A stretch of DNA of 64,000 nt from Kaistia algarum. Lineage in GTDB: Bacteria > Pseudomonadota > Alphaproteobacteria > Rhizobiales > Kaistiaceae. This document shows, one piece after another, positions 21,071-42,063 of this stretch. The position numbers and the translations under genes are program-made. The stretch lies in NCBI RefSeq assembly GCF_026343945.1, contig NZ_JAPKNJ010000001.1, positions 620,001 through 684,000 of the forward strand, in the 5' to 3' direction. The notes under the pieces are model-generated. The model ran no database searches and had not been told where the DNA came from. It worked only from the letters and a program-made list of their open reading frames with translations. Position 1 is the first letter of the stretch; each line of letters opens with the position of its first letter.

Positions 21071-22053
21071 ATGACCGACGAGATGATAATTTACGCAGGC
21101 TGCTGGAGAAGAGCCCCGACGCCGATCTTCTGCACGAGATGATCGGCTTTGCCGCGCAGCGCCTGATGGAGTTGGAGGTCGGCGGCCTGACCGGCGCCGG
21201 TTTTGGCGAGAAGAGCCCGGAGCGCTTGGCCCAGCGCAACGGCTATCGCGAGCGCGACTGGGAGACCCGCGCCGGCACGTTCGCGTTGCGCATCGCCAAG
21301 CTGAGGAAGGGCAGCTACTTCCCCGGCTTCCTCGAGCCGCGCCGGATGGCGGAGAAGGCGCTCACCGCCGTGATCCAGGAAGCCTACATCCAGGGCATCT
21401 CGACCCGCTCGCTCGACGATCTGGTCAAGGCGATGGGCCTGAGCGGCATCTCCAAGAGCCAGGTCTCACGGCTCTGCGAAGAGATCGACGAGAGGGTCCA
21501 GGCCTTCCTCGACCGGCCGATCTAGGGCGACTGGCCTTACCTCTGGATCGATGCGACCTATGTGAAGGTGCGCCAGGCCGGCCGGATCGTCTCGGTCGCG
21601 GTCATCGTCGCCGTCGGCGTCAACAGCGACGGAAGGCGCGAGGTGCTGGGCATGGATATCGGCCCTTCCGAGGCCGAGACCTTCTGGACCGCGTTCCTGC
21701 GCAAGCTCGCGCGGCGTGGCCTGCGCGGCGTCAAGCTCGTCATCTCCAACAGCCATGAAGGCATCAAGGCCGCCGTCTCGAAGGTGCTGACCGCGACCTG
21801 GCAGCGCTGCCGGGTTCACTTCATGCGCAATGCCCTGGCTCATGCGGGTCGTTCCGGACGTCGGGTGGTCTCGGCCTTCATCGCCACCGCCTTCGCCCAG
21901 GACGACGCCGCTGCCGCCAGCCAGCAATGGCGCAAGGTCGCCGACCAGCTCAGGCCGACGATCCCCAAGCTCGCCGCCCTGATGGACACAGCCGAGACCG
22001 ACGTGCTCGCTTACACGACCTTCCCGACGCAGCATCGCGCCAAGCTGCGCGCG
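21071..22053 (+). pseudogene. IS256-family transposase, decayed
   Basis: The reading frame encodes an IS256-type DDE transposase ([46 protein letters not shown]..., then YLWIDATYVKV and GRRVVSAFIATAFAQDD) but carries four lesions. The natural start at 21071 (MTDEM) is out of frame with the body by one base. An in-frame amber TAG stands at 21523-21525 in RPI-stop-GDWPYLW. The second catalytic Asp, normally SDSHEG, is Asn (codon AAC at 21748-21750). Homology stops near 22053 after TFPTQHRAKL, before the NPLERLN segment that carries the catalytic Glu. It cannot be active. The left end is probably near 21000; I could not define terminal inverted repeats, and the 200 bp beyond 22053 are of unknown origin. 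Confidence 0.9.
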
Positions 22054-22254
22054 TCCGAAAACTTCGATGCCTTCATCGTCTTCCGCTCCTCCCAGCCAAG
22101 GGACTCTGGCGCGGAAAACTCCAGCTTTAAACGGTCCAGCTTTCGGGCTCAGATCACGGTCGCAACTACCGCCGCGCCAAAGACAATGTCGGCCGACCGT
22201 CGCGACTTCTGAGCGTCTCTTCCGCGAGCCAGGCGACCCATACGGACGCTGGCC

Positions 22255-23271
22255 TCAGCAGCGCTCGAGCCAGAGGGCCCCTCCCGGATTGCGCAGGAAC
22301 CGAGGATATGTCGCTTCGATCATCGGACGCTCGAAATGGACCAGATAGTCGCTGAACCACGCAATGCGCCAGCTTGCGTTCTCCGTCAGAAAGGCTCGCA
22401 CGGCGTAAGCCTCGTTCCAGGATCTGTTTTCGTCGACCGCCCAAGCCCGGGGATATTCGAACGGCCAAAACATATCATGGATGTGCACCAATACTCCCGG
22501 ACGAATGATTGGAAATATCTCGAAGAGCTCATAGCAAACGTCGCTGCCGGTACGAAGAACATGAGTGGAATCGATAAAAAGTATATCGCCGGCTTCCAAT
22601 TCCTTGAAAACGTCGACCTGTACTTCCTGGACCGGCTCTTCGATAAACCGGACCTGTCCAGGGTAGTCGCCGATCAGGTCCCGCACGAGCGCCGCATAGG
22701 GCTCTATAAAGGTGAGCGAGCAGGCCCCGCCAAGATAGTGTTCCACCGTGTCGGCGGCGCAAGCGGAAGACCAGCCTGAGCCGATCTCGATGATCCGCCG
22801 GGGGCGATGATGACGGATCATCGCGTGAAGAACGCTGCCATCCCCCCATGAATAGGCCGAGTTTTCGAAGGCATACCGGTATTTCGATCCCTTCATCTCC
22901 GGAAATGGATTGCTCGTCATGAACGGCAACAGCGAGTGCCACGTATTGATCATCGATTCGGGGTCGAGCCCGATACCCGGCAATGTGCTCGGCACGCCAT
23001 CTGTGGCCATTCTCGCAAGATGCCGGCTTGCTTCCATGGGATCGACGATCGGCGAATAGAAATGTCCAGGCCGGACGAATAGCTTCACCGCGTTCCCAGA
23101 TCCGGCTTCTTCGCTATTCATGAATTCTTCCGTGATCGCGGCGGGCGACCGTCCGGATCCGAGCTGATCGGCGTAGTATGTCAAGCCGGCGGGGTCGGGC
23201 TCGCGGTGCAGAACAATCCGATAGAGCGCCGACACGAATCGCTGCGCTTCTTCCTCTGCAGTGGTCGGCAT
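22255..23271 (-). CDS. DUF4214-linked class I SAM methyltransferase
   Basis: Protein of 338 residues. Residues 9-55 are a DUF4214 repeat (RFVSALYRIVLHREPDPAGLTYYADQLGSGRSPAAITEEFMNSEE), a module often attached to glycosyltransferases and surface-polysaccharide enzymes. From about residue 120 follows a Methyltransf_24-type domain: RRIIEIGSGWSSACAADTVEHYLGG carries the SAM-binding Gly-rich loop, and ILFIDSTHVLRTGSDVCYELFEIFPIIRPGVLVHIHDMFWPF is the typical post-motif region. Probably a cytoplasmic methyltransferase modifying a sugar, polysaccharide or related small molecule. It is divergent from the large glycosyltransferase at 23650, with which it probably works. Confidence 0.85.
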   Translation of the reverse strand: MPTTAEEEAQRFVSALYRIVLHREPDPAGLTYYADQLGSGRSPAAITEEFMNSEEAGSGNAVKLFVRPGHFYSPIVDPMEASRHLARMATDGVPSTLPGIGLDPESMINTWHSLLPFMTSNPFPEMKGSKYRYAFENSAYSWGDGSVLHAMIRHHRPRRIIEIGSGWSSACAADTVEHYLGGACSLTFIEPYAALVRDLIGDYPGQVRFIEEPVQEVQVDVFKELEAGDILFIDSTHVLRTGSDVCYELFEIFPIIRPGVLVHIHDMFWPFEYPRAWAVDENRSWNEAYAVRAFLTENASWRIAWFSDYLVHFERPMIEATYPRFLRNPGGALWLERC

Positions 23272-23649
23272 GCCCGCCTCGTTCGAAAAGTCGCCCGGCT
23301 GAACCGGCGCAAGGATCTGCCCAGCAACCTACCCGTTTGAGACAGGCTATAGAAAGTTCGAATCCCTTGTCCGCGTCCGATATGGTCGATGCAGCCCGTT
23401 GCGAGACGCGGTCGAGCGGCGAGACAGCATATGTTCGGTCCATAAGGACCGTCGACGTCCCGACAGTTTAATCATCCGATAATGCCGGACAGGGCTGCCT
23501 GCGATGGGCATGCTGGACAGACAATAGTGTGATCGCGATCACATGAAGCCCGCTCAGCCTGAGAGCGGCGACCTCAACGCAATTGACAGCGACTTAATCA
23601 GCAAGGCAAAGATTCTGTTTAGATGGGACATGCTGTCGGGTAGAGGCGA
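23272..23649. other. Divergent spacer in the glycosyl-modification block
   Basis: This 378-bp spacer separates the methyltransferase from the large glycosyltransferase, so it should contain two divergent promoters. TTGACA occurs at 23583-23588 on the plus strand but without a good -10 at the right distance. AT content rises toward 23560-23640. I see no gene and no clear operator. Confidence 0.4.
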
Positions 23650-26631
23650 ATGCACTCAATCGAACAATGGCCGGTGATGTCAGTCGCCGGCGCAGCGTCC
23701 TGGACCGAGTTTGACGCTCGCTGGTATCGAGAAACCTATAGCAGAACGATCGACAAAACACTTAAGACCGACGCGGAAACGCTTCGGTATTATCTAGAGC
23801 GTGGCAGGACAATCGGGCATTCGCCGAACCCGTTCTTTGATGAGTCGTGGTACCTCCGCACTTATCCCGACGTCGCCCGTGCCATCAAATCCGGCAAGTT
23901 TCGGTCGGCATTCGAGCACTACACCAAGAACGCCCAGGAAGCCCGACAGCCGCATTGGTTCTTCGATGCCAAATTCTATCGGGCGGAATACCGGAATCTG
24001 ACGTCGGAGGGGCTCCAGAGCGCGGGGTTCATCAACCACTACGACCATTTTCTTCGAAGAGGTGACGAAGAAGGGCGTAGCCCGAGCCCGTTCTTCAGTC
24101 CGGGATTCTACCTATCGGAACTCGATATCTACGAAACCAAGAAGGCCGCAACCGAGGGCGCCCTCCGACATTTTCTGCGGCGGTTTCGTATCAGCTTGCC
24201 CGAGATGCAAGTCAGCCCTTATTTCGATCCTGTTTGGTATTTGAGGCGATATCCAGCCGTTGCGGGCGAGGTGTCGCGCGGAATTTGGCGGAGCGCGCTG
24301 GATCACTTCTTGTCCAACTCCACGCCTCAGGCCTTCGATCCGCTGCCGGTCTTCTCCGAGGCCTACTATGCCCAGCATAATCTCGACATCGCTGGCTCGA
24401 TCAATTCGGGGAAGCTGCGTTCCGGATATGAACACTTCATCCAATTCGGCATCGCCGAGATGCGGCGCTTCCATCCTCAGATCGACCTGCGGCGCTATCT
24501 TCATAACCACCCGTCCGTACTGGTCGATCTGGAGCAAAATCGGGCTCCGAATGTGTTCGTTCACTTCCTGACGATGGGGACTATCCACGATCTGACAGCG
24601 CGCTCGTCGAATGGCCGCTCGTCTTTGCCAGCCGAAGACGAAGCCAAGCTTCTATTCCGCTTGCAGGCTGCGAACGCATCCCTGCTGTATAGTCATCAGT
24701 CCATCGACTTTTCCTATTCAGGCAAACCGATACTCAGCGTCATCATCGTACTGCATAATCAGTTCTCACTGACGCTGGCCACATTGTCGTCCCTCAGAAG
24801 CAATTATCCCGGCGCCCTACAGGTAATTGTGGTTGATTCAGGCTCCGCGGATCACACCGCCCATATCGACCGATTTATCCAGGGAGCGAGGATAATTCGG
24901 TTCAAGACAAACGTGAACTTCGTACTCGCCTGCAACGCGGCCTTGACCGAGGTCGAGGCGGACGCGGTCCTTTATCTCAACAATGATGTTCTTCTGGCGC
25001 CCGGTGCGATCGAGCAGGCGCTTCGACGCATCCACTCCGCCCCGGATATTGGTGCCGTCGGCGGCAAGGTCGTTCGGACGCACGGATTGCTGCAGGAAGC
25101 GGGCAACATCATCTGGCGAGACGGCTACACAACGGGCTACCAGAGGGAGGCTTCCCCGCTGGCACCTGAAGCCAATTTTGCCCGCGATGTAGACTTCTGT
25201 TCGGGTGTCTTCCTGATGGTGCATACAGAACTAGCCAGGAAACTGGGCGGCTTCGATGTCGACTATGCCCCAGCCTATTTCGAAGAGACCGACTTTTGCG
25301 TGCGGGCCCGTCAGGCCGGCTTTCGGGTGGTCTATGACCCCGCCATCGGCGTGCAACATCTGGAATATGGAAGCTCGGCGTCATCCGAGGCCGCGCGGGC
25401 GCAGATGGCGCGCAGCCATGCCGTATTCGTCCGCAAGCACGGTGCATGGCTGCTTGGTCAGCCGGCGAAGGAACTGCACAGCAGCGTCAGCGCGCGCTCT
25501 CCGCGACGTTCGCTGCGCATCCTGTTCATCGAGGACAATATCCCCGTCCGGTTCGCCGGATCGGGATTTGTGCGCTCCAACGACATCGTCGGTCTCATGG
25601 CCGAGATGGGGTTCGACGTTACCGTGTTCCCCATCAATCGCCCTGATTTCGAGATCGTCGCGATGTATGCCGATTTCCCCGATACGGTCGAGGTGATGCA
25701 CAACCAGGCTGCCGGAAATCTGAATGAATTCCTCGCTGCGCGGAGCGACTACTACGACATCCTCTGGGTGGGCCGAACCCATAATCTCGAGCACCTGAAG
25801 AGCGCCCTGTCCAAGCTTCGATCCGCGCGACAGGTTCGGGTCATTCTCGACACGGAGTCAATTTCCGCAATCCGCCATCAGCAAAGGGCGACGCTCGCCG
25901 ACGATGGTCTGCCCTTCGATCTAAAGACGGCCCTTCAGGCGGAGTTCAAGAACGCGGGCCTCTGCGATGCGATCCTCGCGGTGAGCGAACGCGAAGCACA
26001 AACGCTGCGCGGAATCGGGCTAGGCGCAGTGTCGGTCCTCGGCCATATGCGCGAAGTCCAGCTCACCCGGCGCGAATTTGACGAGCGGCACGGCCTTCTC
26101 TTCGTCGGTGCCATGCATGGTGAGAACTCGCCGAACTACGATTCGCTATGCTGGTTCGTGGACCATGTGCTGGATTTGGTGGAGCAGCAGATCGGCTCCG
26201 ATGCGCATCTCACCATAATCGGCCATACCGCTGGCGATGCCAGCCTGGCGCGCTTCAAGGATGATGCGCGGATCACCCTGCTCGGCTCGGTTGCAGACAT
26301 CGAACCTCATTTTGACCAGCATAGGATCTTCGTTGCGCCCACCCGCATCGCAGCCGGCCTCCCGTATAAAATCCACGAGGCCGCGTCCCTTGGCCTGCCG
26401 GTGGTGGCTTCCACCCTCTTGATGAAACAGACAGGCTGGCGAAACGGCAAGGAACTACTGGCCGCCGACACGACCGATCCGGCCATGTTTGCGCGCCAGA
26501 TCATCGAATTGTACCGATCAAAGAGCTTGTGGCAGCGTTTGCGGCAGGGAGCCGCGAACCGCATTTCGTCCGAGCATCATCGCGCGCGCTATCGGGAGAC
26601 GCTGAGAGCGGTGCTGGTTCCTGCCGATTGA
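23650..26631 (+). CDS. Multidomain glycosyltransferase (repeat region + GT2 + GT4-like)
   Basis: 993 residues in three parts. Residues about 15-330 hold at least five degenerate repeats of 45-60 residues of the form FFDxxWYLRxYPDVAxxIxxGxxRSAxxHYxxxGxxExRxP, a repeat seen N-terminal to glycosyltransferases in surface-polysaccharide loci. Residues about 358-600 are a GT2 domain: PILSVIIVLHNQFSLTLATLSSL, then VIVVDSGSADHT and LYLNNDVLLAPGA (metal-binding DxD-like). Residues about 620-990 are a GT4-like domain: LRILFIEDNIPVRFAGSGFVRSNDIV, then LLFVGAMHGENSPNYDSLCWFVDHV and KIHEAASLGLPVVAS. It probably adds two sugar types in glycan assembly. The start has tagaggcg upstream. It converges on the ATP-grasp gene. 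Confidence 0.88.
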   Translation: MHSIEQWPVMSVAGAASWTEFDARWYRETYSRTIDKTLKTDAETLRYYLERGRTIGHSPNPFFDESWYLRTYPDVARAIKSGKFRSAFEHYTKNAQEARQPHWFFDAKFYRAEYRNLTSEGLQSAGFINHYDHFLRRGDEEGRSPSPFFSPGFYLSELDIYETKKAATEGALRHFLRRFRISLPEMQVSPYFDPVWYLRRYPAVAGEVSRGIWRSALDHFLSNSTPQAFDPLPVFSEAYYAQHNLDIAGSINSGKLRSGYEHFIQFGIAEMRRFHPQIDLRRYLHNHPSVLVDLEQNRAPNVFVHFLTMGTIHDLTARSSNGRSSLPAEDEAKLLFRLQAANASLLYSHQSIDFSYSGKPILSVIIVLHNQFSLTLATLSSLRSNYPGALQVIVVDSGSADHTAHIDRFIQGARIIRFKTNVNFVLACNAALTEVEADAVLYLNNDVLLAPGAIEQALRRIHSAPDIGAVGGKVVRTHGLLQEAGNIIWRDGYTTGYQREASPLAPEANFARDVDFCSGVFLMVHTELARKLGGFDVDYAPAYFEETDFCVRARQAGFRVVYDPAIGVQHLEYGSSASSEAARAQMARSHAVFVRKHGAWLLGQPAKELHSSVSARSPRRSLRILFIEDNIPVRFAGSGFVRSNDIVGLMAEMGFDVTVFPINRPDFEIVAMYADFPDTVEVMHNQAAGNLNEFLAARSDYYDILWVGRTHNLEHLKSALSKLRSARQVRVILDTESISAIRHQQRATLADDGLPFDLKTALQAEFKNAGLCDAILAVSEREAQTLRGIGLGAVSVLGHMREVQLTRREFDERHGLLFVGAMHGENSPNYDSLCWFVDHVLDLVEQQIGSDAHLTIIGHTAGDASLARFKDDARITLLGSVADIEPHFDQHRIFVAPTRIAAGLPYKIHEAASLGLPVVASTLLMKQTGWRNGKELLAADTTDPAMFARQIIELYRSKSLWQRLRQGAANRISSEHHRARYRETLRAVLVPAD

Positions 26632-26638
26632 TGTCGCG

Positions 26639-27571
26639 TCAGACCGCCTCAGCACGGGTCTTCTCGATCAACATGCGCGCGCACGTCTCGAACGCATCAA
26701 ACTCAGTGGTCAAGTCGTCGACGCCGAGTCTCGTTTTGTACCCTGGTGCCGAGCGGCTTGAGAACATCCAGGTTCCGCCGCCGGGGTTGATTTCCAGCAG
26801 GTAGAGCTCGCCAGTCTTGGCGCGCAGGATATCGCAGGCTTGCAGGGCGATTTCCGGCATGGCCCGGTATGCGGCGGCAGCAAGCGCGAGAATGTTCGGA
26901 TCATGGGTGACATAGGCAACCGAATCGGGAGGCGCCGGCATGAATTGCGCCTGCTGGTACGGCTCTGTTGCCTCGTCCAACGCCAGATCCCGAGTCGATT
27001 CCCGGCAATAAGTGAAGATCGGCGTGCCGAAAAGAGTGAGCACGCGGCAGGTCATGGCGCGCCCGCAATCGATGAACTTCTGCGCCACCATTGGACCGCG
27101 TCGCCCGGGATGATCGGTTGGATAGTCCGTCGGTGACTGAAATCGGACATTCTCCCGCCGCCTCAATTCCACGCCCTGTCCCCAGGACGCGAACTCGAAA
27201 GCGGGTTTGATGATCACGTAGTTGCCATAGGTCTCCGGCGAAAGGTCGACGCCCGGTTCGATTACCTGATAGGCGGGGACGGGCAAACCGGCGGCGGATA
27301 GACGACCCATTTCCGTCAACTTCGACATGGATTGTCCGGCGTAGATCTTACCGCGAAGCGGAGTGAAGCTCGCCAGTCGAATAGGCGAAAATATCAGTGA
27401 GGGTCGGCTTGCCGCCTTCTTGCGGGTATAGGAGGACCTTGCATCGTTATCGACAATGAAGACTTCGATATCCGCTGCCATATCTTCGACATAGGCTCTG
27501 ATCACCTCAAAGTCGTTTATGTCCTGCCATTCTCTCGAATGGACGAGAACCAGATTTCGGCTCGGCTCCAC
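26639..27571 (-). CDS. ATP-grasp enzyme of the candidate peptide-modification cluster
   Basis: Protein of 310 residues with a GTG start. The ATP-grasp fold is visible: MSKLTEMGRLSAAGLPVPAYQVI (substrate-domain entry, about 80-103), YVIIKPAFEFASWGQGVELR (nucleotide-binding Lys, about 120-139), and PMVAQKFIDCGRAMTCRVLTLFG (hinge). The metal-binding end is ACDILRAKTGELYLLEINPGGGTW (about 250-273). ATP-grasp ligases join a carboxylate to an amine or hydroxyl via an acyl phosphate, and in RiPP systems they form lactone, lactam or amide bonds on precursor peptides. It starts 3 bp after the GT2 stop, so it is coupled to the same transcript. The substrate is unknown. A role on the 57-residue peptide (28795-28968) is inferred from context; a sugar or amino acid ligase is the alternative. 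Confidence 0.8.
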   Translation of the reverse strand: MEPSRNLVLVHSREWQDINDFEVIRAYVEDMAADIEVFIVDNDARSSYTRKKAASRPSLIFSPIRLASFTPLRGKIYAGQSMSKLTEMGRLSAAGLPVPAYQVIEPGVDLSPETYGNYVIIKPAFEFASWGQGVELRRRENVRFQSPTDYPTDHPGRRGPMVAQKFIDCGRAMTCRVLTLFGTPIFTYCRESTRDLALDEATEPYQQAQFMPAPPDSVAYVTHDPNILALAAAAYRAMPEIALQACDILRAKTGELYLLEINPGGGTWMFSSRSAPGYKTRLGVDDLTTEFDAFETCARMLIEKTRAEAV

Positions 27572-27574
27572 GGC

Positions 27575-28693
27575 TCAATCCCGGAATGATACTGGGCGGG
27601 CGGCTCGGTCGTCGCCGAGAGCGATGGCCCGGATGCGATAGCTAGGATCGTGCGGCGCCAACCGGGATGCCATCAGGAAATGATCGGCGGCGCCCTGTCG
27701 GTCACCCAGTTGAAAACAGGCAAGCGCGGCGAGTTCGCAAGCCTTCTCGCCAAAAATGGCGCGATCGAAGGCTAGCAAGCCATCACCAAGGGCGTCAGGG
27801 TCGACTGCGCGCAACGCTATCGCAATCTCCAGAGCCTCTATCGGGCGACGGCTCTCAATAAGCATCCTCCCATGCAGAAACCGCAGCGCATGGTCTTCGG
27901 GGAAGCGTTTCAAGGCAAGCGCGATCATGTCCGTGACATCGTTGCCCTGCTCGAGCATGACGCGCGCCAGATATTGGTGGATGAGGCTGGCTGCGCCGCG
28001 CTGCTGCTCGGAATCAAGTCTTTCAGTGCTGGCGATGCCGGCATTTGCCGCCGCGATTCCCTCTTCGCGCCGGCCAATAGCATCCAACGTCTCTGCCAGA
28101 TGATACCAGCAATAGGCGCGGTCAGGGTCTGCACGGACCGAGGCCTGCAACAGCGCCAGATTGCGGGCATGCTTGTGCGACTGATCGCCTTCATAGCCGA
28201 GATGATTGATTTCGACGGCCGTCCTCGCAACCGTCCTCCCGTCCAATGCTTCCAGCGCCCGGATCGCTGGAACGACAGTCTCGTGGATCCGCCCGCTGAA
28301 CCGGATGCGGGGGTCGCTTCGAAACAGTCGGAGCTCTCGATAGCGTGTGTAGCCTAGCCTTGGTTGAAACCGAACATAGGCAGCGACTGCTGTCGGATCG
28401 ATATAATCCTCCAGGGCGCCTCCAGCCGGCAAGCCCAGGCGCTCATCGGCGTCGATATAGAGAACCCAATCACAGGAGACCGCGTCCAACGCGACGTTGC
28501 GCGCTGCAGCAAAGTCTCCCTGCCAGTCAAAATGAAGAAGATATCCGCCCGCTCCGACGGCAATGTCCACCGTGGCATCAGACGATCCCGTATCGACGAT
28601 GACGATCTCATCAACGCGATCGCGCAACGAGGCAAGACAATCGACCAAGAACGCCGCCTCATCGCGGACAATCATCGCCGCTGCGATCGTCAT
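27575..28693 (-). CDS. GT2 glycosyltransferase with TPR-like C-terminus
   Basis: Cytoplasmic glycosyltransferase of 372 residues from ATG 28693 (378 from an in-frame TTG at 28711; neither has a strong ribosome site). The GT2 start IAAAMIVRDEAAFLVDCLASLRDRVDEIVIVDTGSSDATVDIA is followed by the metal-binding WVLYIDADERLGL (about residues 80-92) and a FSGRIHETVVPAI segment. The C-terminal half (about 180-370) is helical and repetitive (AWCWYHLAETLDAIGRREEGIAAANAGIA-like blocks), consistent with TPRs. This is the architecture of the TPR-containing glycosyltransferase subfamily. It lies between the small peptide gene and the ATP-grasp gene. Confidence 0.85.
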   Translation of the reverse strand: MTIAAAMIVRDEAAFLVDCLASLRDRVDEIVIVDTGSSDATVDIAVGAGGYLLHFDWQGDFAAARNVALDAVSCDWVLYIDADERLGLPAGGALEDYIDPTAVAAYVRFQPRLGYTRYRELRLFRSDPRIRFSGRIHETVVPAIRALEALDGRTVARTAVEINHLGYEGDQSHKHARNLALLQASVRADPDRAYCWYHLAETLDAIGRREEGIAAANAGIASTERLDSEQQRGAASLIHQYLARVMLEQGNDVTDMIALALKRFPEDHALRFLHGRMLIESRRPIEALEIAIALRAVDPDALGDGLLAFDRAIFGEKACELAALACFQLGDRQGAADHFLMASRLAPHDPSYRIRAIALGDDRAARPVSFRD

Positions 28694-28794
28694 CGGATTG
28701 GTCGCGGGCAAAAAACAGACGTTCCGGCACCTATAAGGGCCAGCCTCCGAATAAGAACCATTCGATACACCATCGAACAGCCTAGCCTGCTCTT

Positions 28795-28968
28795 CTATTG
28801 ATTTCCCATATAAGCCGGCCGGAAAGACTTCTTGCCGCCGAGCGGGTAGGAAATGACCTGTGGCGCCTCGTAACTGGTCTTAGCCGTGAGGGCATTCACT
28901 TTGTTCTGGGTGTCGAGCGACACTTTGCTCTCTAGCTCACGCCTTCTCTTGAGAGAATTTACCGCCAT
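28795..28968 (-). CDS. Short peptide, candidate RiPP precursor with YxxPxV motif
   Basis: A 57-residue open frame starts MAVNSLKRRRELESKV and ends PAYMGNQ. Its ATG has an excellent ribosome site (gaggga, 5 bases before), and a promoter lies at 29026-29054. The first 30 residues are polar and Lys/Arg/Glu rich. Residues 33-38 are Y-E-A-P-Q-V, followed by ISYPLGGKKSF. The pattern YxxPx(L/V) with a following Gly is the leader motif recognised by PqqD-like RiPP recognition elements in lasso-type leaders. The last 14 or so residues (GGKKSF plus RPAYMGNQ) could be the core. It sits between a PqqD-like gene and GT2/ATP-grasp genes. It is too short for most automatic gene callers. No homologue family is recognised. 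Confidence 0.65.
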   Translation of the reverse strand: MAVNSLKRRRELESKVSLDTQNKVNALTAKTSYEAPQVISYPLGGKKSFRPAYMGNQ

Positions 28969-29025
28969 CAAAGTCCCTCGATCCTGTGTGCGAAGAAGGT
29001 AAGCACCTCACCACCAAGCGTTATT

Positions 29026-29054
29026 CAGATATTCCGATCGCGCAATCCTGTCAA
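29026..29054 (-). promoter_or_regulatory. Sigma-70-type promoter of the short-peptide gene
   Basis: On the minus strand TTGACA (29054-29049, perfect -35) is followed by a 17-bp spacer and TATCTG (29031-29026). Transcription would begin near 29019, giving a 5' leader of about 50 nt before the ATG at 28968. It lies in the gap after the PqqD gene, so the peptide gene and its two downstream genes can be transcribed separately from the upstream part. Confidence 0.55.
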
Positions 29055-29179
29055 TATGCCTATTCTTTGGGCAAGCCTTATCAGCAGACCGCAGCAAACT
29101 TGTCGAAGATGGCTTCGGTAGCCGCCAGCGAATTCGTTTGCGTTACACAAGTTCTATTTGCGTGATTCGGCAGGGATCT

Positions 29180-29449
29180 TTACTCGATAAGATGTTGCGA
29201 CAGCAACGAGTCGAGGCACAGGCCAACATCCTGCACGGGCGCCGACGCAAGACCGAATGCCCTTTGCAAAACCTCGGCGATTTCGTCGTCGTCACATCGA
29301 CCGTCGCACAACTCCAAAACGGCAGCAGCTGTCAGGTTGAGATAGTGAACCTGGGCTCGGCGATCATCGTAGATCACATAACCATCCGGCACCTCGCTGC
29401 ATTCAAGGCCACCGACCCGGCGGTAGATCCGAGGCTTGCCGTCAGTCAT
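29180..29449 (-). CDS. PqqD-like RiPP recognition element protein
   Basis: Small protein of 89 residues with the PqqD/RRE signature: RIYRRVGGLECSEVPDGYVIYDDRRAQVHYLNLTAAAVLELCDGRCDDDEIAEVLQRAFGL. The key features are a beta-hairpin, then LNxTAAxVLELCDG and a helix that ends in a C-terminal LLSQHL. Such domains bind leader peptides of ribosomally made, post-translationally modified peptides and present them to modifying enzymes. It overlaps the GT4 stop by 8 bp and has ggag upstream, so it is coupled to that gene. In other alphaproteobacterial loci similar proteins sit near polysaccharide genes, so the context is also consistent with a glycan-linked role. Confidence 0.88.
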   Translation of the reverse strand: MTDGKPRIYRRVGGLECSEVPDGYVIYDDRRAQVHYLNLTAAAVLELCDGRCDDDEIAEVLQRAFGLASAPVQDVGLCLDSLLSQHLIE

Positions 29450-30650
29450 ATCGGAACTCCATAGGAATTAAGTCTGCCGTTCCCGTTGGAATGCTCATCA
29501 GCGACCGAGAAATCTGATCGATTACATTCTCCCTCGCATGGTGCTTACGAACCCAACGCCATGCGCTTAAGGCGCGCCGTCTTCTTTCTACCGGATTGTC
29601 CAGAGCCTCGCAGCACGCCTCGGCAAAACCATCGCTGCTAGCGCCAAGCCAGCCATGACGATTATTTTTCCAGTCAAGCCCATTTGCAGCGATCGGCGTA
29701 GCGACGGTTGCGACGCCATGGGCCGCCGCTTCGAGCAGTTTGATCCGTGTTCCGCCGCCAGATCTTAGCGGCGCAATCGCTATCGTCGACCGTTGATAGA
29801 GTCCGGCCAAATTCGTCACATAGCCGAGCACCGAGATCTGGGGGTGGCGGCCGAGTGCAAGCACCGGAGCAGGCGGCCGCGCACCGGCGATCAGAAGCCG
29901 GAAAGGCTTCGAGGATCGAGCCCGCATCTTCGGCAATATTTCCCTCGCGAACCAGAGGAGTCCTTCGACATTCGGAGAATAAGAGAGCGACCCAACGAAT
30001 GTCATCGTCGCCCCGTCGTCGCAAGCGGCGGCAGGGGGCAGGACATCAACCGCATTTTCGGCCAGTTCCAGGTCCAGGGCCGGGTGGCGGCTTCGCAGTT
30101 GCTGCAATTCCTGCCGGCTGGCTACAAAAGCGCGTTGAAAGCGAGGCCCATAGCGCGAAATCAGGTTGACGCAAGCTAAGCCTTCCTGAAGCAACCAATC
30201 GGCATCCTCTCCAGCGCCATGAACGCGAGCCAGCCGCGCGTGCGACGAATATGCCGATAGATCGTCCTCATCCAGATCGACTGTCGCCGTCGTTTCCGGA
30301 GGCAGCGCATGGATGCAAGGTGAGAGATAGGAGCGGCTGATATGAACGAGATCAGGCGCGCAAACGGTCAATATCCCTGCAATATCCCGCATAACCGGAC
30401 CAGAGAGGAAGCTGGCAAGACTTGGCTTTCCATAGTCGCGAAAGGCTGCAATGCGGGTTTGTTGGTCGTGGATCCGTGAAAGCAACACGAAGGGCGTTTC
30501 ATTCCGGTCCGCTATCGGTATGACGTTGAGGCCTGCTCCAATCTCCTGAAGCAGAGGCGTCCTCTCGGTTGAACCGCCGGCGACAGGTACAACGATTACA
30601 TCGAGCTGCGCAAAGCGGGACAATGCGGCCGCGAACATGCCTACCCGCAT
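29442..30650 (-). CDS. GT4-family glycosyltransferase (start uncertain)
   Basis: Glycosyltransferase of 402 residues from ATG 30650. The C-terminal half is a canonical GT-B donor domain: TMTFVGSLSYSPNVEGLLWFAREILPKM, then FRLLIAGARPPAPVLALGRHPQISVLGYV, SGGGTRIKLLEAAAHGVATVATPIAANGLDW. The N-terminal acceptor domain has a problem. The frame is open 69 bases and more upstream of this ATG and reads AVIICPIVPSRSGNGLAMRVGMF, which looks like the first strand and Gly-rich loop expected of a GT4 enzyme, yet no ATG, GTG or TTG precedes it. Either the true start is an unusual codon (CTG at 30719 is possible), or the N-terminus is truncated by a lesion, or translation continues from the small frame at 30862. 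Confidence 0.8.
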   Translation of the reverse strand: MRVGMFAAALSRFAQLDVIVVPVAGGSTERTPLLQEIGAGLNVIPIADRNETPFVLLSRIHDQQTRIAAFRDYGKPSLASFLSGPVMRDIAGILTVCAPDLVHISRSYLSPCIHALPPETTATVDLDEDDLSAYSSHARLARVHGAGEDADWLLQEGLACVNLISRYGPRFQRAFVASRQELQQLRSRHPALDLELAENAVDVLPPAAACDDGATMTFVGSLSYSPNVEGLLWFAREILPKMRARSSKPFRLLIAGARPPAPVLALGRHPQISVLGYVTNLAGLYQRSTIAIAPLRSGGGTRIKLLEAAAHGVATVATPIAANGLDWKNNRHGWLGASSDGFAEACCEALDNPVERRRRALSAWRWVRKHHARENVIDQISRSLMSIPTGTADLIPMEFRYD

Positions 30651-30715
30651 CGCGAGGCCGTTTCCCGACCGCGACGGGACGATGGGGCAAATAATGACGG
30701 CCTTCCGAGATTTAG

Positions 30716-30862
30716 TCAGGACTTTGCTCGCTTGGCATGCTGGGGGGAGCGGTTCTGCACGAGACGGAGACGATCGGCCACATCGATTGCTTCGGCTCGC
30801 GCTCGTGCGAGCGGCCTAAACACAACGTCCGCAGCCAAACGACGCTTCTGATCAACAACCAT
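30716..30862 (-). CDS. Small open frame upstream of the GT4 gene
   Basis: A 48-residue frame beginning MVVDQKRRLAADVVFRPLAR and ending AKRAKS with a TGA. A purine-rich site (aaaggag) lies only two bases from its ATG, which is closer than usual. Its stop overlaps the region where the GT4 frame begins, so it could be a translationally coupled leader peptide, a spurious frame, or the first part of a GT4 protein broken by a one-base lesion. It is Arg-rich and has no recognisable domain. Confidence is low, but it may explain the missing GT4 start. Confidence 0.35.
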   Translation of the reverse strand: MVVDQKRRLAADVVFRPLARARAEAIDVADRLRLVQNRSPQHAKRAKS

Positions 30863-31289
30863 GGCTCCTTTGGTGGCAATGGACGCAAGATCCAGTCATC
30901 GAGCCTAACGGGCAGTCGGCACCTGTACGGTCACCACCACCGGCCGTTGCGGTGACGTTCCAGCCGCGACGTCCCCCGTCGCTGCACCAAGCCGTAAGCG
31001 CCGCGTAAGATATCACCTTGGACGATACCGAATAGTCAACTCCAACCGTCAGAGCGAACTTGGCGATGGGCAGATGTCGCCAAGGTCGCCGGATATCTTA
31101 GCTCGACACTGTCGTTTTGTGGCGCTTCCGTCACGATTCTCTAAAAACGAACCGGCTGTCGTGCCACCCTCCAACTCGGCTTTGACTATGCGTGGCCAAT
31201 TCCTGTAGCTATTCGTGTGCTTATTGGTTTGCTCGCATTGGCCGACAGCGGTCGATATCAATGGCCCAAGTAGCTAAAGGTCGATTCAG
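30863..31289. other. Divergent gap with no gene
   Basis: A 427-bp spacer between the candidate peptide cluster and the outer-membrane protein gene. No credible coding frame is seen. Weak TTGACT elements occur at about 31182 (plus strand) and 31039 (minus strand) without convincing -10 boxes. Local AT content is higher than in the flanks. Confidence 0.4.
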
Positions 31290-32021
31290 ATGAGAACGCT
31301 TCTTCTAGCGACCACCGCATTGACTTTAGTCTTTTTGGCGAAATCGGCCTCTGCCGCTGATCTCGATGTTTCCATACCTGCGCCCGCACCTGCCGCGGTT
31401 CCTTACCAGGTTCCGTTCGACTGGAGCGGTGGCTATGCCGGCTTGCACGCTGGCTGGGGCTGGGGCAAGGAGACCGATAATTGCTCCCAGAGCGAGAACG
31501 GCCCGTGCACGATCGGAAGCGGCTTGGGCTTAGGCTTAGGTCAGAGCGCGGATAGCTTCAATCTCAATGGTTTCGTCGGTGGCGCGCATATCGGCTACAA
31601 TTATATGCTGCAGCAACGGTTCATGTTCGGCGTCGAAGGTGATTTTGACTACGCCAACCTCAACGGAAGTCATGCTTTCGGAGCGGTCGGGTCTCTCGGG
31701 ACACTTGAGTTGAACACCAATTGGGAAGGTTCCGTCAGGCTGCGAGCAGGTTACGCGGTCGACAGGTTCATGTTCTTTGCAACTGGCGGTGTTGCGTTCG
31801 CCGATGCAGACCTCGCTTTCAATGGCGTCACCGATAGCAATATTCATGTCGGTTGGACGGCCGGCGGTGGTGTCGAGTATGCACTGACCCCGAATTTGCT
31901 CGGTCGATTTGAAATGCGCTACAGCGACTTCAACTCCATGACGTATCAGACACCACTCGGGCCCGTGGACGCTGGGTTTGACCAGACAGTTGCCACCGTC
32001 GGCCTGAGTTACAAGTTCTGA
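31290..32021 (+). CDS. Outer-membrane beta-barrel protein (Omp25/31-like)
   Basis: 243 residues with a signal peptide (1-22, ending KSASAAD) and a compact Gly/aromatic-rich barrel: FDWSGGYAGLHAGWGWG, GFVGGAHIGYNYML, RFMFGVEGDFDYANLN, SVRLRAGYAVDRFMFFATGGVAFADADLAF, GWTAGGGVEYALTPN. It ends SYKF, a terminal Phe as required for BAM-mediated insertion. This is the Omp25/31 (OMP_b-brl) family common in Hyphomicrobiales, with no known enzymatic activity; it contributes to outer-membrane integrity. It is a single gene with its own promoter region. Confidence 0.9.
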   Translation: MRTLLLATTALTLVFLAKSASAADLDVSIPAPAPAAVPYQVPFDWSGGYAGLHAGWGWGKETDNCSQSENGPCTIGSGLGLGLGQSADSFNLNGFVGGAHIGYNYMLQQRFMFGVEGDFDYANLNGSHAFGAVGSLGTLELNTNWEGSVRLRAGYAVDRFMFFATGGVAFADADLAFNGVTDSNIHVGWTAGGGVEYALTPNLLGRFEMRYSDFNSMTYQTPLGPVDAGFDQTVATVGLSYKF

Positions 32022-41430: not shown

Positions 41431-42063
41431 ATGAGCGAGTTCCAGTACGCTTCCGAGCGCTTCGTGGCTCAACTCAAGCATAGCCTCGCCAGCCGCGCCG
41501 GCTCTCCGGCGGAGCTGGCCGCCGCAGTCGCGACTATACTGGGCGCCTTGCCTGCGGAGGATACGCCCGCGTCGCGCGGCTCGCACGGCGCCGATCGGTT
41601 CGCTCCCGCGGCGGCCGACTGGCTAGCTCCGGCCCTCTCCGCTGCACGGTCAGGGCCGGAGAGGGAACTCGCCGGCACGATCGCCATCCTGGCGGACGAA
41701 CTACGCTGGACCTTCGGCTATGCGCCCGATCCCCGCCGCCCGACGCTCAGTGATGCAATCGGCTTCGCCGATATCCTCGGCAAATCGAGCCTCCTTCCCG
41801 CATCTGGGATCGTAGCGGGGCTCACCCTCATCGCGCCGCACACCTATTATCCGCTGCACATCCACCCGGCCGTGGAACTCTATCTTGTGCTGTCAGGCAC
41901 GGCGGAATGGACGGCGGGCAGCACCATTGCCGCGCAGCCGCCCGGAACGCTGATCCTGCACCCCTCCGATCTGCCGCATGCCATGAGGACGGGGCACGAG
42001 CCGCTGCTGGCGCTGTTCACCTGGAGCGGGGACATCGTCACGCCGTCCCGGTTCATCGAATAG
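41431..42063 (+). CDS. DMSP-lyase-like cupin protein
   Basis: 210 residues. The C-terminal cupin (about 120-205) carries IAPHTYYPLHIHPAVELYLVLSGTAEW, which matches the metal-binding HxHxxxxE-type motif and Tyr of the dimethylsulfoniopropionate lyase-like (DLL) family, and a later HPSDLPHAM supplies the further His. The N-terminal 110 residues are helical as in DddL-like proteins. DddL-type enzymes split DMSP to acrylate and dimethyl sulfide. Other DLL members are not DMSP lyases, so activity is unproven. It is the last gene of the transporter operon, following the monooxygenase. Confidence 0.75.
   Translation: MSEFQYASERFVAQLKHSLASRAGSPAELAAAVATILGALPAEDTPASRGSHGADRFAPAAADWLAPALSAARSGPERELAGTIAILADELRWTFGYAPDPRRPTLSDAIGFADILGKSSLLPASGIVAGLTLIAPHTYYPLHIHPAVELYLVLSGTAEWTAGSTIAAQPPGTLILHPSDLPHAMRTGHEPLLALFTWSGDIVTPSRFIE

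Follow-up and report, generated by a model that had tools for sequence, protein, structure and literature searches.

A candidate RiPP-like locus of Kaistia algarum that combines a PqqD-like recognition element, a SunS-like glycosyltransferase and an ATP-grasp ligase with a conserved short peptide

Introduction

What is made by a row of bacterial genes in which a short peptide lies among two glycosyltransferases, a PqqD-like protein and an ATP-grasp enzyme? This question is raised by a locus of Kaistia algarum, located within a stretch of 64,000 nucleotides (assembly GCF_026343945.1, contig NZ_JAPKNJ010000001.1, positions 620,001-684,000 of the forward strand) that we call the window and whose positions serve as coordinates throughout. 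A preliminary description of this DNA had placed five minus-strand frames in a row, with 3 bp between the genes of the family 2 glycosyltransferase (GT2) and the ATP-grasp enzyme and an 8-bp overlap between those of the family 4 glycosyltransferase (GT4) and the PqqD-like protein. All five frames are present with this spacing. We consider it probable that the locus encodes modification of the type known from ribosomally synthesized and post-translationally modified peptides (RiPPs): a RiPP recognition element (RRE) would bind the peptide, the GT2 would glycosylate it, the ATP-grasp enzyme would carry out a ligation, and the GT4 would extend the sugar.

Results

The peptide gene (28795..28968, minus strand) encodes 57 residues comprising a leader and a recognition-type motif, YEAP-Q-V-I-S; 21 residues follow the motif proline, and the C-terminal end is G-N-Q. 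Used alone as a query of the protein database, this peptide found no match, and its relatives surfaced only once peptides had been collected from loci fetched via the ATP-grasp enzyme. A 13-row profile of such peptides then reached 39 protein clusters in the database, which contain no Pfam domain, and members of the family reached no Pfam family (seven scanned) and no NCBIfam family (eight scanned). The 59 peptides gathered, with some copies left out, include 58 distinct ones (20 from loci plus the window, 38 from the database). Because they were gathered by similarity, the motif counts that follow describe the set and are no independent test. All 58 distinct peptides contain [YFD]xxP-x-[VI]-x-[ST] (with Y in 50) and an Asn, and the residue before the last Asn is Gly in 51, Ala in five, Pro in one and Cys in one. 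In 50 of the 51 peptides with Gly-Asn, the motif Pro lies 20 or 21 positions before the Asn; the exception is a peptide of the second type described below, which happens to end in GN and whose aligned Asn follows Ala. Both the Pro and the Asn are invariant in a 36-row alignment. The Ser/Thr of the motif, four residues past the Pro and invariant in the set, is the sole Ser/Thr after the motif proline in two of the 58 members.

The 335 homologues of the ATP-grasp enzyme provided a way to examine the company that the peptide keeps. A profile of 19 of them led to 13 genome loci (three from Labrys, one each from Bradyrhizobium, Reyranella, Aestuariivirga and Taklimakanibacter, one labelled Brucella sp., and five others, four of which are metagenome-assembled genomes), which together with the window and genome G076 make 15 genomes. 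A peptide gene of the family is present in 13 of these 15 loci, directly upstream of the GT2 gene in 12 and directly upstream of the ATP-grasp gene in one (L020); the GT2 is found in 14, the PqqD-like protein in 12 and the GT4 in eight. Hence, as is characteristic of RiPPs, the gene of a putative ribosomal precursor is conserved together with neighboring genes for putative modifying enzymes. The short frame, whose conservation the preliminary description had made a test of its reading, is conserved, and the close ATP-grasp/GT2 pair accompanies it; a fixed five-gene order is not supported, the GT4 being present in eight of the 15 loci. In a trio of close orthologues (L016, L017 and L021), synonymous divergence (dS) is 0.21-0.42 and nonsynonymous divergence (dN) 0.01-0.04, so that changes are mostly silent. 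Judging from this pattern, and since it recurs beside the same genes in other genomes, the peptide gene is more than a chance frame.

Wider sampling delimits the association. Among 397 genomes of the order, the ATP-grasp enzyme was matched at E<1e-150 in six, and the same six have a peptide match at E<=5.7e-6; they belong to three families, with four in one genus, and thus amount to about three independent cases. Sixteen other genomes of this sample contain distant ATP-grasp paralogues only (best E 3.6e-115 to 2.9e-64; six distant-paralogue sequences were part of the profile), and a strong peptide match is lacking in all sixteen. We examined 14 paralogue loci from 13 genomes (12 of these 16, plus G265), and 13 of the 14 show neither a PqqD nor a GT2 match. 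Therefore, the peptide is tied to the close ATP-grasp clade and not to the ATP-grasp family as a whole. The system looks rare, because in a class-wide sample of 385 genomes a strong match was confined to the genome of K. algarum itself, next to weak matches (E 5.9e-5 to 0.004) in three genomes of one genus. Plasmid records gave no match to the ATP-grasp enzyme.

Two further observations concern small genes near members of the family. G219 has a second peptide of the family, which is encoded on a different contig of this genome, next to a PqqD gene and a NodZ-like one (L052:9216-10141). Upstream of the GT2 gene, two Labrys species have in common a stretch that reads FLC[VT]KLWESRDSKSKELPGVS (L015:8172-8393 and L014:8394-8741), which in L015 is in frame with a YSAPQL motif; this stretch may be a second small gene or conserved non-coding DNA.

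A sister group extends the picture. A second peptide type, AAFA.PVVASFAMDGL...QVANGSG, came to light through weak matches; it is present in seven tandem copies in G090 (L051:8615-10321, upstream of the GT2 gene), in two copies by reading or three by profile in G182, and in one copy in G347. Its neighbors encode a GT2 that is 40-41% identical to that of the window, a PqqD, a kinase-like protein and Mannosyl_trans3-type and NTP_transf_5-type proteins. The kinase-like protein of G090 matches HprK_rel_A with 52 bits (cut-off 200), its relatives in the first group, that of the window, match by BLAST or else only faintly, and the NTP_transf_5 protein of the sister group scores 99 bits (cut-off 31). 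A profile of the second type reached one further genome, G104, whose locus had been held out of profile building; there, a peptide gene lies directly upstream of the GT2 gene, together with matches to the PqqD, HprK-like, GT10, Anp1, Mannosyl_trans3 and NTP_transf_5 queries. Since the sister loci keep the PqqD, the peptide and the GT2 without the ATP-grasp enzyme, these three form the shared core, whereas the ATP-grasp enzyme, the kinase-like protein and the further glycosyltransferases vary.

The PqqD-like protein (29180..29449, minus strand, 89 aa) is a putative discrete RRE that matches PF05402 with 35.7 bits (cut-off 23.4); no other protein of the genome matches PF05402 at E<=0.001. Its best NCBIfam match, PqqD_rel_X (TIGR04353), reaches 31.5 bits, below the cut-off of 35, and a PQQ (pyrroloquinoline quinone) biosynthesis locus was rejected, the corresponding PqqD model (TIGR03859) giving 26.0 bits for a cut-off of 46. 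According to PMC12710340, YxxP is the known RRE motif of lasso peptides, and W/Y/LxxP-type motifs accompany PqqD and other RRE groups.

The GT2 (27575..28711, minus strand, 378 aa, start codon TTG at 28711) has C-terminal TPR-like helices and a Pfam match of 52.6 bits (cut-off 23.3). In sequence and fold it is nearest to the peptide and protein glycosyltransferases SunS, ThuS and GmaR, and closer to these than to the GT2s of polysaccharide or teichoic acid synthesis. The preliminary suggestion that sugars are added to the peptide gains support from this kinship, by virtue of which glycosylation is now a better founded prediction. The same result bears on a different explanation, namely that we are dealing with a surface-polysaccharide locus, in which the GT2, the GT4 and a nearby fusion glycosyltransferase build a glycan, the ATP-grasp enzyme links a sugar acid with an amino acid, and the peptide and PqqD act as an unmodified small regulator or scaffold. 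Several glycosyltransferases and a methyltransferase do lie around the peptide gene; related loci contain GT10, NodZ-like, Anp1 and Mannosyl_trans3 transferases and a Stealth protein; and the ATP-grasp enzyme, whose Pfam matches are all sub-threshold, has "sugar-transfer associated ATP-grasp" as the best of these. However, no polymerase, flippase or priming transferase was recognized in the part of the neighbors that was scanned, the GT2 is related as just described, and the invariant Asn of the peptide lies far from the RRE-type motif. Taking both sides together, we regard a polysaccharide locus as unlikely.

The ATP-grasp enzyme (26639..27571, minus strand, 310 aa) is represented by an AlphaFold model that matches ATP-grasp enzymes along its whole length and has a fold nearest to LysX, ArgX and RimK. 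D247 and E260 are invariant in 51 rows, and N262 is nearly so. No name given to the 120 relatives listed goes beyond "hypothetical protein", "ATP-grasp domain-containing" or "Ddl-like ATP-grasp".

Other genes of the locus could take part. A GT2-GT4 fusion glycosyltransferase (23650..26631, plus strand, 993 aa, PF00535 and PF13692) is convergent to the cluster and a possible accessory; relatives lie next to the same cluster in L022 (65%) and L023 (47%). A protein with DUF4214 and methyltransferase parts (22255..23271, minus strand, PF13578 and PF13946), another possible accessory, has a relative in L023 (51%). The GT4 (29442..30719, minus strand) matches PF13692 with 83.2 bits (cut-off 27) and TIGR03087 with E 1.9e-37 and 129 bits (cut-off 317). 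Its frame is open to about 30815, yet the first ATG, GTG or TTG is the ATG at 30650, while in an N-terminal comparison six of seven relatives begin with an ATG 22-24 residues earlier; for this reason, translation probably starts at a rare codon, the CTG at 30719, or the gene is damaged there. The extent of 26639..30862 proposed in the preliminary description holds for the five genes inside it but not for its right end, as 30862 is the start of a separate frame of 48 residues (30716-30862) that matches no Pfam family. When 26500-31300 was scanned for promoters and terminators, sites were no more numerous than in shuffled sequences.

The cluster was possibly acquired. This is suggested by the GC content, which is 57-60% over 22-32 kb and 62-69% in most other 2-kb bins (8-10 kb is also at 57%), by a Mutator-family transposase fragment at 21562-22212, next to the 10-kb low-GC stretch (22000-32000), and by the lack of an ATP-grasp match in 13 congeners. 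A genomic island is not claimed: comparison with three congeners showed no empty site, the alignment being limited to the gene of the mechanosensitive channel and the upstream edge of that gene. Elsewhere in the window, a cupin protein (41431-42063) has a Pfam match to DMSP (dimethylsulfoniopropionate) lyase (91 bits, cut-off 27).

Discussion

How does this locus compare with peptide systems that have been described? Like lasso clusters with a discrete PqqD-like B1 protein, it combines a putative PqqD-family RRE with a YxxP precursor motif (for lasso clusters, see PMC12710340), the motif being YEAP in the window and [YFD]xxP in the whole set. Unlike in those clusters, there is no match to PF00733 in the window, in agreement with the preliminary statement that no asparagine-synthetase-like lasso cyclase is encoded there, and only 21 residues follow the motif proline; genome-wide, PF00733 gave two weak partial matches, on contigs C3 and C4.

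Glycocins have Cys in their core for S-glycosylation or disulfides. The GT2 of the window has the same fold as the glycocin enzymes, and SunS and ThuS are among its nearest solved relatives. The locus differs from theirs in an identity of 18-21%, a SunS model score of 57 of 350 bits, the addition of a PqqD-like RRE and an ATP-grasp enzyme, and peptides that in 55 of 58 cases, that of the window included, have no Cys beyond the motif; a SunS-type reaction on Cys is thus ruled out for most members. The comparison with graspetides, which the ATP-grasp enzyme brings to mind and whose rings are donated by acidic side chains of the core, divides the family: an Asp or Glu follows the motif proline in 51 of the 58 peptides, so that such donors are possible in the wider family, while the peptide of the window and six others have none. 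From LysX/ArgX-LysW and RimK-S6 ligases, the enzyme differs in an identity of 14-17% and in a putative substrate that ends in G-N-x.

The family roles of mycofactocin (MftA-F) include a short peptide, a PqqD-like RRE and GT2-type glycosylation. These are shared here, and the fusion glycosyltransferase matches MftF weakly (65 bits, cut-off 280); however, the radical-SAM profile of MftC (PF04055) has no match within the 64-kb window, and a mycofactocin locus was rejected. The HPr-rel-A system of NCBIfam resembles ours through the PqqD_rel_X match and through the HprK_rel_A (TIGR04352) match of the sister group, but both models score below cut-off, and none of the five genes of the window is HprK-like; we found no paper on the HPr-rel-A and PqqD_rel_X names in the open-licence literature. 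The locus thus lacks a tested feature of lasso, glycocin and mycofactocin clusters and of the HPr-rel-A PqqD model, yet would work like parts of several of them. That it is a known class in disguise, i.e., a degenerate lasso, graspetide or glycocin cluster, would account for the YxxP motif beside PqqD, for the ATP-grasp enzyme and the acidic residues, and for the SunS-like GT2, but the missing PF00733 match, the seven members without Asp/Glu and the 55 without Cys make this explanation, already disfavored, very improbable.

We return to the RiPP-type modification that we consider probable. In this scheme, the PqqD-like RRE would bind the peptide at Y-E-A-P-x-V and present its C-terminal region to the GT2, a step modelled on the binding of YxxP in lasso systems as PMC12710340 describes it. 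The GT2 would add the first sugar, most likely to the invariant Ser/Thr four residues past the motif proline, or alternatively to the invariant Asn near the C-terminus. The ATP-grasp enzyme would activate a carboxylate with ATP, most likely that of the peptide C-terminus next to the Asn, and couple it as an amide to an amino acid or amine. RimK, LysX and ArgX act at the C-terminus of small proteins, and amide formation at this end is suggested by the LysX/RimK fold. The GT4, and perhaps also the fusion enzyme, would extend the sugar. What we observe is that the genes are present, that the peptide is conserved and occurs together with PqqD, GT2 and ATP-grasp, and how the folds are related; from this we infer binding, sites, order of steps, products and fate. 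As regards the preliminary proposal that the peptide is the substrate of the PqqD-like element and the enzymes, its conservation and co-occurrence stood up, while a fixed five-gene order is not supported, nor is the idea that the ATP-grasp enzyme acts as in described RiPP classes, given its LysX/ArgX/RimK-like fold and a window peptide core devoid of Asp/Glu.

Several findings weigh against this scheme. The locus of L. okinawensis (L014) has the GT2 and ATP-grasp genes without peptide or PqqD within 10 kb (at a distance of about 48 kb the genome does have a peptide gene, next to genes for a PqqD and a GT10), and in the genome labelled Brucella sp. 21LCYQ03 (L024) the ATP-grasp gene (55%) stands alone, as neither GT2 nor PqqD nor the peptide was matched in the surrounding 10 kb or so. 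The paralogue loci without PqqD and GT2 point in the same direction, as does L099:5312-10859 (G158), where a distant ATP-grasp (30%), a GT2 (47%) and a PqqD-like gene occur and no peptide was recognized. Three more distant peptide pairs show weaker constraint (dS 0.68-1.81, dN 0.29-0.61, dN/dS 0.2-0.5), and the region after the motif is short; RRE binding by itself might account for some of its conservation. The GT2 is distant from SunS itself (21% identity, and the low model score given above). As matches of the ATP-grasp model, LysX, RimK, PPIP5K2, synapsin and Ddl differ by no more than about 3 Z units, and because of this closeness of five enzyme types its reaction is not settled by fold lists. 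Finally, no protease or exporter was recognized in the part of the neighbors that was scanned, a statement that for the window does not include a profile of transglutaminase-type proteases or exporters.

A bolder form of the scheme is that the peptide is a primer or carrier for a complex oligosaccharide, which the GT2 starts, the GT4 and others extend, and the ATP-grasp enzyme couples, as a glycopeptide, to another partner. PqqD-peptide pairs are accompanied by GT10, NodZ-like, Anp1 and Mannosyl_trans3 genes, that is, by more sugars than a single decoration needs, and peptides of the subtype in which the Asn comes 20 positions after the Pro are found together with the fusion glycosyltransferase in three of three loci. 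These are co-locations, however, and the subtype link could reflect common descent. The three fusion rows are split by the ATP-grasp tree and weakly grouped by the GT2 tree, and a single clade in the ATP-grasp tree is not rejected (approximately unbiased (AU) test, p 0.14); a link of subtype and fusion enzyme independent of descent is therefore suggestive only. We hold this form to be distinctly unlikely. As a general proposal for the family, we tentatively put forward as possible a new glycosylated RiPP class, in which the RRE-presented peptide would serve as the scaffold on which a complete oligosaccharide is built, so that bacterial glycan assembly would be primed by a ribosomal peptide: the GT2 would prime on the Ser/Thr or the invariant Asn, interchangeable fucosyl-, mannosyl- and other transferases would extend the chain, and a LysX/RimK-like ligase (in the sister group, an HprK-like protein and a nucleotidyltransferase) would cap or couple it.

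In summary, we found no description of this gene set in the open-licence literature, nor of an RRE, a SunS-like glycosyltransferase with a peptide mostly lacking Cys, and a LysX/RimK-like ligase together. Mining that is guided by the enzymes of known RiPPs could readily overlook such a system, because the peptides scanned reach no Pfam or NCBIfam family and the listed relatives of its ATP-grasp enzyme have general names at best. The locus is RiPP-like, and would represent a new class if the reading of a glycan on a peptide is right. If true, this would offer a route, open to direct testing, by which short peptides could be O- or N-glycosylated under the guidance of an RRE, and possibly an instance in bacteria of a glycan built on a ribosomal peptide.

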